IMG/VR virus record: IMGVR_UViG_3300021957_000346
Span: 1-22,365 of that record
Direction: 5' to 3' (one strand)
From: a virus
DNA: 22,365 nucleotides
This document shows, one piece after another, positions 7,409 through 10,619 of this stretch. The notes below the pieces were generated by a model. That model saw only the letters and a program-made list of their open reading frames with translations, was not told where the DNA came from and searched no databases. Numbering within the stretch: position 1 is the stretch's first letter; each line of letters starts with the position of its first letter. Made by a program: the position numbers and the translations under genes.

Positions 7409-7475
7409 AGTCTCTTAATTAAATAACTTAAAAAGTCATAAATGACTTCTTTTTAAGTTATTTAATTAAGAGACT
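7409..7475. repeat. Long inverted repeat, 30/33-bp arms
   Basis: The left arm is 7409-7438 and the right arm 7443-7475, with a TAAA loop. The outer 25 pairs or so are perfect (AGTCTCTTAATTAAATAACT onwards), and the inner AAGTCA/TGACTT pairing continues after a 3-nt bulge (GAA on the complement). It is AT-rich and has no U-run on either side, so it can form a cruciform or RNA hairpin rather than an ordinary terminator. Confidence 0.85.
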
Positions 7476-7519: not shown

Positions 7520-7556
7520 AATTTTGACTGACAGCATAGCTGTTGTGCGGGCATTG

Positions 7557-7947
7557 AAGACTTTAAAAGTCTTTGAAGAAGATCGACCTGAAATCGCCAA
7601 CTCTCCCTTCGGGAGGCTGTTAACTCCAAAATCTAGAAAACTCTGGAGAGGTATAATCGGTAGATTATAAAAGCTTGTAAGTCTCTGAAATCCTTGGAAG
7701 TCTTTGGAGAGATTCTAAAGAATCTTAAAAGTCTTACAAGTCTCCCTAGTTAGTAAACTAGACCTGAAGCTTTGGAGTCTTTGAAGACTTTGAAAGTCTT
7801 ATGTGCAGGATAGAATCTTAAAAGACTCAGGAGTCTTTGAAGGGCGGGCAGGTGACCATACCCCCTCCCCCCTATATATACACAATCTTATACATTTTGG
7901 AAGACTTTGGAGTGTCAACCAGTTAGGGCGGCAGCTTTAAAGACTTT
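7557..7947. repeat. Cluster of AAGACTTT / AAAGTCTT repeats
   Basis: Seven perfect copies of the 8-mer, in either orientation, fall in 390 bp: 7557-7564, 7566-7573, 7728-7735, 7784-7791, 7793-7800, 7901-7908 and 7940-7947. Near copies lie at 7698-7705, 7776-7782, 7821-7828 and 7831-7838. Several form tight palindromes: AAGACTTT-A-AAAGTCTT, AAGACTTT-G-AAAGTCTT and AAAGACTC-AG-GAGTCTTT. This density suggests binding sites for a dimeric protein, such as an origin, repressor or terminase protein. Confidence 0.75.
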
Positions 7948-7972
7948 AAAGGTGGGAGGTATGTGCATATAA

Positions 7973-8039: not shown

Positions 8040-8147
8040 GGTGTTAGAGTGCGTATATACACACAAATCTAAACCTAGAAGGCGGGGGGAGATGAATAAG
8101 GAATGTATGGCTGATATGTCTATATAACCCCGGAGGGCTTAATATCC

Positions 8148-8176
8148 ATTATACACCTGAAATTCAATTTTGTCAA
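8148..8176 (-). promoter_or_regulatory. Leftward consensus sigma70 promoter
   Basis: On the minus strand, TTGACA (8171-8176), 17 bases, then TATAAT (8148-8153), both hexamers perfect. The start point falls near 8141. The nearest leftward ATG with a ribosome site is at 7346, giving a leader of about 795 nt. The -35 box is preceded by the palindrome AAGTACTT. Confidence 0.85.
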
Positions 8177-8300
8177 GTACTTCTATATACTTTTTAGTTA
8201 TGTGCACCTGTATTGATATACCATAAGTGATATATGCACCCCTTTTATGCGTATTTATATATCATAAATAAGATTCTTATGCAAATAAGTTATAAAACAC

Positions 8301-8329
8301 TTGACAAAACCCCATTTTACCTGTATAAT
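8301..8329 (+). promoter_or_regulatory. Rightward consensus sigma70 promoter for the virion block
   Basis: TTGACA (8301-8306), 17 bases, then TATAAT (8324-8329), both perfect. The start point is expected at 8336-8337, and the terminase small-subunit ATG begins at 8337, so the mRNA should be leaderless. An in-frame TAA at 8331-8333 excludes an upstream start codon. Confidence 0.88.
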
Positions 8330-8336
8330 GTAATAC

Positions 8337-8735
8337 ATGTCAAACAATAAAGAACTCACAACTAAGCAACAATCATTTCTTGATAGCCTTGTAGCCTGCA
8401 ATGGGGACACAAGACTAGCAGGAGAAATGGCAGGCTATGCACCTACAAGCATTAATAGTGTTGTTAAGAGTTTAAAAACAGAGATCTTAGACCTAGCTAC
8501 TAATATACTAGCGCAGAGCGCCCCTAAAGCTGCTCTAAAGCTCGTACAGGTCATGGACAGTGAAGTACCTATCCCGCAAGCTAACATGCGTATACAGGCC
8601 GCACAGACCATTCTAGACCGTGTAGGCTTAGGCAAGACAGATAGGCTTGATGTGACAGTAAACACAAATGGTGGTTTATTCGTCATACCGGCGAAAAAAG
8701 AGGTAGTTATAGATGCAGACTATACGGAGGTCTAG
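8337..8735 (+). CDS. terS: Terminase small subunit
   Basis: A 132-residue protein with an N-terminal helix-turn-helix (LTTKQQSFLDSLVACNGDTR, then LAGEMAGYAP) of the type that recognises the packaging site. A helical oligomerisation region follows (SVVKSLKTEILDLATNILAQ, then SAPKAALKLVQVMD), and the C-terminal RIQAAQTILDRVGLGKTDRL stretch is typical of phage TerS proteins. TerS rings bind concatemeric phage DNA and hand it to the large subunit. There is no Shine-Dalgarno site: the ATG coincides with the predicted transcription start of the 8301-8329 promoter. It overlaps the next small gene by 23 nt, with TerL following. Confidence 0.85.
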   Translation: MSNNKELTTKQQSFLDSLVACNGDTRLAGEMAGYAPTSINSVVKSLKTEILDLATNILAQSAPKAALKLVQVMDSEVPIPQANMRIQAAQTILDRVGLGKTDRLDVTVNTNGGLFVIPAKKEVVIDADYTEV

Positions 8736-8946
8736 TAGCACTATACCGTTTGGCTATGCATTAGATGAGAAGAACACAGAGCTTCTTATGCCTATAGACA
8801 ATGAACTAAACGCTTTAGATAAGGTCATACCCATGATCAAAGATAAAACATTAAGTTTACGAGAAGGCAGTTTGTGGTTAGAGTTTGAAACAGGACGCAA
8901 GCTTTCGCACATGGGTCTAAAGAAAATAGTAGATAAGCGCACATGA
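8713..8946 (+). CDS. Small HTH-like protein between terS and terL
   Basis: A 77-residue protein starting inside terS at the ATG at 8713 (GAGG 9 nt upstream) and ending with TGA overlapping the TerL ATG (ATGA). The middle STIPFGYALDEKNTELLMPI is followed by two predicted helices (NELNALDKVIPMIKDKTLSL, then REGSLWLEFETGRKLSHMGL, then KKIVDKR). The last part resembles the recognition HTH that follows the catalytic domain in serine recombinases, but no catalytic domain is present. The position between terminase genes suggests a packaging accessory role. The assignment is by pattern and position only. Confidence 0.65.
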   Translation: MQTIRRSSSTIPFGYALDEKNTELLMPIDNELNALDKVIPMIKDKTLSLREGSLWLEFETGRKLSHMGLKKIVDKRT

Positions 8947-10619
8947 ATGATTGGGAACTAAATCCCGATAACTACGCAAAAGACGACAACGGAGAGTTTA
9001 TACTCAAAGTTGACGGGACACCGCGTAAGAAGTCAGGTAGAGCTAAAGGATCTAAAAGCCGTGGTTATAATTACCATTCTGAGACTAAGGCAAAAATGGC
9101 TGCAAAGAAAGCAGTCAAAGAAAAACAAAAGAAATTAAAGGCAGCCCAAGCTAAGGTCGATAACTACAAGAAGTCAATAAGTAAAACTAAAAAGACTTTG
9201 ATACAGCTTGCTAATGATAAAGCAAGTAAAGTTATAAGCGAAGAAGATTTACAAGATCTTCCAAAGCCCTTAGCAACTGAAGCTCAAGAGGATGTTATCT
9301 TCAAGGCCAACGAAGGCCCACAGGAAGACTTCCTTGCCGCAGGAGAAACAGATGTCCTGTATGGTGGAGCAGCAGGGGGTGGTAAGTCCTACGCTATGCT
9401 TGTAGATCCGTTGCGTTTTGCACACAGAGCTGCACATAGAGGTTTGATTATTAGGCGCTCTATGCCTGAATTGCGCGAACTGATTGATAAGAGCCGTGAG
9501 TTGTACCCAAAAGCCTTTCCGGGCTGTAAGTACAAAGAAGTAGAAAAACTCTGGAACTTCCCAAGCGGAGCAAAGATTGAGTTTGGATTCTTGGAACGAG
9601 ACGCAGATGTTTATCGTTATCAGGGTCAAGCATATAGCTGGATAGGGTTTGATGAGATTACTCACCTTCCGACAGAGTTTGCTTGGAACTACTTAGCATC
9701 TCGATTGCGTACAACTGATTCAGAGATTCAAACGTACATGCGTTGTACAGCTAACCCCGGCGGTGCTGGAGCAACGTGGGTAAAAAAACGATACATAGAC
9801 CCCGCACCGTCCTACGAATCTTTTATAGGTGCAGACGGGCTAACACGGAAGTTTATACCTGCTAGGTTACAGGACAACCCCTTCCTAGCTACAGACGGAC
9901 GTTACGAACAGATGCTAAAGGCTTTGCCGCCTACACAGCGACAACAACTGTTAGATGGCAATTGGGATGTTTCAGAGGGCGCAGCCTTCACTGAGTTTGT
10001 TCCGCAGCTACATGTAATTACACCTTTTGAGATTCCAGTACACTGGGAACGCATAAAAGGGATTGACTACGGGTATGCATCTGAGTCTGCTTGTATTTGG
10101 GGTGCAGTAGACCCAAGTGACGGCACACTAATTATATATCGTGAATTGTACAAAAAAGGTTTATTGGGTACTGACCTAGCAGATTTAATTACAAACATGG
10201 AACTAGCAGACCCCTTTTCAGTTCCCGGAGTGCTTGACACAGCTTGCTGGAGTCGCACCGGAACTACAGGCCCGACAATCGGAGAGACCCTCATCAGAGC
10301 TGGTCATAAGCTAAGAAGAGCTGATAAGAACCGAATACAAGGCAAAATACAAATCCATGAATACTTGAAAGTAATGCAAAGCGGTAGGCCACGAATACAG
10401 ATATTTAATACATGCCCGAACCTGATACGCGAACTGCAAAGTATTCCTCTGGATAAAAAGAACCCAGAAGACGTAGATACACATGCACCCGATCACGCAT
10501 ACGATGCACTACGTTATCTGATTATGTCTAGACCTCGTATAAACGATACGTTGAGTCAGATGAGACAGTTTCATCGGGAAAGCACATTTACTCCTGTTGA
10601 TTCCACCTTTGGATATTAA
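8943..10619 (+). CDS. terL: Terminase large subunit (packaging ATPase-nuclease)
   Basis: A 558-residue packaging motor. An N-terminal Lys-rich extension (1-110) precedes the ATPase domain: Walker A GGAAGGGKS at 141-149, Walker B WIGFDE at 233-238 (catalytic E238) and coupling motif CTANPGG at 268-274. The C-terminal RNase H-like nuclease has GIDYGY (D375), GVLDT (D432) and HAPDHAYDALRY (D517/D521), the acidic residues that bind Mg2+ and cut concatemeric DNA. TerL docks on the portal and pumps DNA into the prohead. All key motifs look intact. The start overlaps the preceding stop (ATGA), and the portal begins 5 nt after its stop. Confidence 0.95.
   Translation: MNDWELNPDNYAKDDNGEFILKVDGTPRKKSGRAKGSKSRGYNYHSETKAKMAAKKAVKEKQKKLKAAQAKVDNYKKSISKTKKTLIQLANDKASKVISEEDLQDLPKPLATEAQEDVIFKANEGPQEDFLAAGETDVLYGGAAGGGKSYAMLVDPLRFAHRAAHRGLIIRRSMPELRELIDKSRELYPKAFPGCKYKEVEKLWNFPSGAKIEFGFLERDADVYRYQGQAYSWIGFDEITHLPTEFAWNYLASRLRTTDSEIQTYMRCTANPGGAGATWVKKRYIDPAPSYESFIGADGLTRKFIPARLQDNPFLATDGRYEQMLKALPPTQRQQLLDGNWDVSEGAAFTEFVPQLHVITPFEIPVHWERIKGIDYGYASESACIWGAVDPSDGTLIIYRELYKKGLLGTDLADLITNMELADPFSVPGVLDTACWSRTGTTGPTIGETLIRAGHKLRRADKNRIQGKIQIHEYLKVMQSGRPRIQIFNTCPNLIRELQSIPLDKKNPEDVDTHAPDHAYDALRYLIMSRPRINDTLSQMRQFHRESTFTPVDSTFGY

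Follow-up and report, generated by a model that had tools for sequence, protein, structure and literature searches.

Messages that open with their own start codon have been described both in phages and in bacteria. The cI mRNA of lambda is the classic leaderless message of a phage, and 70S ribosomes together with initiator tRNA favour initiation that dispenses with a Shine-Dalgarno (SD) sequence (PMC9031893, PMC3160421). Among bacterial genes, those called TA-led (Zheng et al. 2011, PMC3160421) and the -10-adjacent ORFs of Deinococcus-Thermus (PMC12340547) carry a TANNNT or -10 signal about 10-12 bp before the start and lack an SD, a combination read as evidence that they are leaderless; in Deinococcus the -10 motif itself can act as a promoter (PMC12340547). 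Leaderless transcripts with mapped 5' ends are also known for host genes of the alphaproteobacteria Caulobacter (PMC4117421) and Zymomonas (PMC7566282), and Caulobacter has 375 leaderless mRNAs, accounting for 9.6% of its coding sequences, whose translation is as efficient as that of led ones (PMC4117421). For phages, one remark holds that transcripts are often leaderless (PMC5312081). In the terminase-related literature, judged by titles and abstracts, we found no report of a leaderless terS, the gene of the terminase small subunit, in tailed phages of bacteria; the word 'promoter' is absent from the genome paper on HMO-2011-type phages (PMC9038755), whose TerS is homologous to the one studied here.

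The terS locus analysed in this work resembles each of these systems in part. Like cI, it is a phage gene whose transcript would start at the AUG, which for terS is a prediction; but cI encodes the repressor of a temperate phage, whereas terS is a packaging gene with a promoter-start geometry kept over a wide group of marine phages. It shares a -10 signal close to the start and the lack of an SD with the TA-led genes and the Deinococcus-Thermus ORFs, but those are bacterial genes, whereas terS is found in phages and has full consensus -35 and -10 elements at a 17-bp spacing. Caulobacter and Zymomonas belong to the probable host class of our phage, although the 5' ends of their transcripts are mapped and that of terS is predicted. 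The cultured phages HTVC103P and HTVC115P are alike in TerS homology, promoter-ATG geometry, divergent promoters and the position of terS at the head of an operon. In HMO-2011 and the CRP Roseobacter phages that we inspected, by contrast, terS has no such promoter and lies mid-operon, directly after another gene (CRP-738, CRP-207 and HMO-2011). These phages are distant relatives, and the feature is therefore one of those lineages that have terS as the first gene of a divergent operon. This type of start is known in itself; its strict conservation at terS, as far as the sequences can tell, appears to be new.

Promoter, start codon and product of terS

The window, by which we mean the whole stretch of DNA analysed (an IMG/VR record of 22,365 bases, probably a fragment), contains the following features around the start of terS.

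8148..8176, minus strand: divergent perfect promoter (TTGACA-17-TATAAT), which serves the leftward operon and nearly mirrors that of terS
8301..8306, plus strand: -35 element TTGACA, read directly and found by promoter scan, near-invariant in relatives
8324..8329, plus strand: -10 element TATAAT, 17 bp from the -35 element, read directly and found by promoter scan
8330..8336, plus strand: discriminator gtaatac, 7 nt, with C at 8336
8331..8333, plus strand: in-frame TAA stop, which excludes any start upstream
8337..8339, plus strand: ATG start codon of terS and predicted transcription start (A8337; alternative C8336)
8337..8735, plus strand: terS, terminase small subunit, 132 aa, identified by tblastn, PHROG and position
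8713..8946, plus strand: 77-aa ORF that overlaps terS at its end, without a PHROG match
8943..10619, plus strand: terL, terminase large subunit, PHROG match

A sequence-only reading of this DNA had claimed a perfect TTGACA-17-TATAAT promoter ending at 8329, seven bases before the ATG at 8337, and an in-frame TAA at 8331-8333 that blocks any upstream start; both are confirmed by direct reading. With its two hexamers, a spacing within the 16-18 bp range and a frequency above chance, the promoter is of the sigma70 type, and the 7 nt between the -10 element and the ATG fall within the range of about 6-8 nt taken to characterise a leaderless start. Only two sites in 20 kb match sigma70 at 12/12 positions, namely the terS promoter and the divergent one on the minus strand (8176..8148), while weaker matches in the 20-kb scan are not in excess (48 vs 48.1 in shuffles). 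The complete arrangement TTGACA-N17-TATAAT-N7-ATG has a single occurrence in the window and none in 100 shuffles. A chance promoter at terS is ruled out by the shuffles, the rarity of 12/12 matches and the conservation of the hexamers in relatives. A promoter-like site on the minus strand that overlaps the ATG (8343..8314) is taken as chance because its TTGACA derives from ATGTCAA and is missing from relatives such as L005.

The absence of an SD at terS, unlike at most genes, had been noted before and was borne out, since its anti-SD pairing, at +0.8 kcal/mol and without any 3-nt match, is the weakest among 27 candidate genes and most genes of the window lie at about -3 to -13 kcal/mol; the other weak scorers include terL (-0.9), which overlaps the gene upstream of it. 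As a comparison between classes of loci, SD energy is not useful for leaderless ones because the 20 nt that are scored take in untranscribed promoter bases. From the upstream stop to the conserved LTxKQ motif, the ATG at 8337 is the only in-frame ATG, GTG or TTG, the next in-frame ATG being at residue 31. This agrees with the earlier claim that no nearby downstream start fits the TerS N-terminus, and with a single in-frame start ahead of the motif, a mis-annotated terS start was rejected. The message is predicted to be unfolded over its first 40 nt.

The product matches annotated phage TerS in 18 records (tblastn), with Pelagibacter phages as the best matches (54% identity to HTVC115P and 50% to HTVC103P), and its match to PHROG 2538 (TerS) is weak (E 2.7e-4). 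Homology to annotated TerS and the position before terL place it in the HTVC103P/115P-related group; terL, portal and capsid genes follow downstream. The hosts of cultured relatives are alphaproteobacteria, as far as records name them, and this is the probable host class of the window phage. The GC content is 40.8% in the window and 32.9% in HTVC115P.

The best explanation, which we hold to be very probable, is that terS RNA from the consensus promoter at 8301-8329 starts at A8337 (or 8336) and that ribosomes initiate on the 5'-terminal AUG without an SD. The promoter would be recognised by the host RNA polymerase of the sigma70 type, and a start at A8337 or C8336 would leave a message that opens with its own AUG, preceded by 0-1 nt. 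Because the start of terS is the predicted start of the mRNA, ribosomes would have to initiate right at its 5' end, probably as intact 70S particles with initiator tRNA, and the later genes of the packaging block would use their own sites or coupling. The modal discriminator of the alphaproteobacterium Zymomonas is 6 bp (PMC7566282), which would put +1 at C8336 and give one leader base.

Conservation of the spacing and competing explanations

We placed 116 distinct related terS loci on a quickly built tree, several forks of which are weak. This comparison of the spacing in related phages, which the sequence-only reading had proposed as a check, supports the leaderless start: the -10 element and the ATG are 6 or 7 nt apart in 87/116 loci, with promoters scoring 11-12/12. 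A conserved TerS start elsewhere in homologues would have spoken against it, and in these 87 no ATG is sensible other than the one 6-7 nt downstream of the -10 element. The remaining loci have 29-33 nt (26/116), 11 nt (L080) or no good promoter (L253 and L364). The 6-nt class corresponds to the HTVC103P branch and every other leaderless-class locus has 7 nt; within the class the distance changes once on the tree. The start codon is ATG in 87/87 of these loci as parsed, and most relatives offer one possible terS start only. Across the 87, five of the six -35 positions are unchanged and there is one change, at position 4, and the -10 element is invariant apart from A/C at position 5. Spacer positions underwent 3-13 changes each on the tree, and positions -2 to -6 of the discriminator 7-14 each. 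Position -1 is C or T in 55/55 distinct upstream sequences of leaderless loci, with 4 C/T changes on the tree and none to a purine; the other five discriminator positions show 3-8 purine/pyrimidine changes each. Initiation usually prefers a pyrimidine at -1 followed by a purine at +1, which makes the A of the ATG the best transcription start.

Two of the 87 loci are from pelagiphages in culture, HTVC115P (7 nt) and HTVC103P (6 nt), which keep the geometry with N-termini that are longer and different, and among 80 annotated starts of HTVC115P terS alone has it at 12/12, the next best reaching 9/12. The promoter keeps company with the ATG and not with the conserved TerS domain. From the spacing conserved in 87/116 loci, the pyrimidine at -1 and the linkage of promoter and ATG, we strongly infer that the terS transcript would be leaderless, as had been predicted, and that selection may hold the distance for the sake of translation.

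The distance is bimodal among relatives, at 6-7 or 29-33 nt, and values of 8-28 nt are nearly absent. The longer spacings are scattered over several branches, and the tree, a quick one in which some forks are weak, requires about nine changes of state. Close relatives at 29-33 nt are thus found here and there, and leaderlessness is therefore not essential for terS. The gap would fit a translational constraint whereby the AUG must either be 5'-terminal or have enough RNA ahead of it for standard 30S binding. In many of these short-leader loci another TATAAT (e.g. in L069, L314 and L326) or a CATAAT follows the first by about 7 nt, at the place where leaderless relatives have the ATG.

For an independent control we sampled IMG/VR stretches by the presence of a perfect promoter and a start codon within 1-20 nt, which gives a sample and not a census. 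Among the matches listed, ATG is at +6/+7 after perfect promoters in 61/247 cases (p 2.5e-11), in 34/88 when ORFs have at least 40 aa (p 1e-12) and in 32/76 for TATACT promoters (p 3e-13), where all p-values assume an equal chance at every position 1 to 20. GTG and TTG are not enriched at +6/+7 after perfect promoters among the matches listed from IMG/VR, and neither is ATG in bacterial contigs, again among the matches listed and in a sample made mostly of Firmicutes.

These data bear on three other accounts of the locus. A transcript starting 2-7 nt before the ATG (e.g. at A8332, A8333 or A8335) would have a very short SD-less leader, and might arise because RNA polymerase can shift its start site by a few bases and the terS discriminator contains A and G; but this requires a discriminator of at most 5 nt, below the usual 6-8, and the strict pyrimidine at -1 with A at +1 points to the A of the ATG, which renders such a leader improbable. 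The functional message could instead come from a promoter further upstream, or from a phage-modified polymerase, and carry an SD-less leader, the close promoter being secondary. Led translation without an SD does seem possible, since most of the 29-33 nt leaders lack one. Still, the scan found no further plus-strand match of at least 10/12 between 7350 and 8300, the upstream operon runs leftward, opposite to terS, and the hexamers are nearly invariant over 87 loci, so that we regard this origin of the message as very improbable.

The distance of 6-7 nt could finally be held by promoter function alone, with the coincidence of the ATG a by-product of compact intergenic DNA. Phages are indeed compact and promoters close to starts are common, but the intergenic region beside terS spans about 1 kb, relatives lengthen the distance only via a jump to 29-33 nt, the ATG stays at +6/+7 even though the N-terminal length varies, and the phage-wide enrichment at these positions concerns ATG and not GTG/TTG (among the matches listed). 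A mere by-product of compactness is thus hardly credible, and initiation on a 5'-terminal AUG is the explanation that we retain.

The divergent promoter and the non-coding DNA

The promoters of terS and of the leftward operon have 32-nt arms that are 78% complementary. A matching divergent promoter scoring 11-12/12 is found in 113/113 relatives tested, and the gap between the divergent -35 elements ranges among relatives from about 13 to 124 bp. The leftward transcript opens with a conserved G+C-rich element (window 8120-8147, minus strand; TTAAGCCCNCCGGGGTTATATAG), about 800 nt ahead of the first long ORF. Variants of this element such as AACGGcccaCCGTT and AACCCctttGGGTT point to a small hairpin that paired changes have maintained; RNAalifold gave no consensus energy for the window type of the leftward leader, whose alignment is too gappy. 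The search of the intergenic region for known RNA elements returned only miRNA-type matches, far below gathering scores. The long non-coding stretch includes a perfect inverted repeat of 27 bp around a 13-nt loop (7409-7475) and many AAGACTTTAAAGTCTT-like palindromic repeats (7550-7960), which are possibly an origin or a packaging site. Several HTVC115P (MN698247.1) promoters, at 50926 (-), 18860 (-), 54266 (-) and 54284 (+), share an extended form, GGTGTATAAT, that is also present in the window's leftward promoter.

Starts in other phages and the meaning of the terS start

Genes whose ATG is at +6/+7 in the IMG/VR sample include those of clamp loader, primases, DNA polymerase, helicase and exonucleases. 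T4-like replication genes, namely those of clamp loader, primases, exonuclease, DNA polymerase and helicase, start 6-7 nt after perfect sigma70 promoters in L105, L119, L120, L126, L146 and L179, and leaderless starts may therefore be common in marine T4-like phages. In L089 and L110, a perfect TTGACA-17-TATAAT-7-ATG lies inside the terL reading frame, where translation from the internal ATG would give about 140 aa of the TerL C-terminus; this is either a coding coincidence or an internal start. It is an evenly balanced proposition, in our view, that promoter-proximal genes of environmental phages commonly, and not just rarely, combine a consensus host promoter with leaderless translation. This would be seen in terS here and in several replication genes of T4-like phages, and the terS lineage would toggle between a leaderless state and a spacing 22-26 nt longer while avoiding intermediates.

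If the terS start is leaderless, an essential packaging gene of an abundant group of marine phages would be translated without a ribosome-binding sequence, and its spacing would have been held while the adjacent bases and the TerS N-terminus changed. Relatives at 29-33 nt are natural matched pairs for what leaderlessness does, and cultured relatives exist in which the start may be examined. The enrichment in the IMG/VR sample suggests that many phage starts and 5' ends may be callable from promoter geometry alone.
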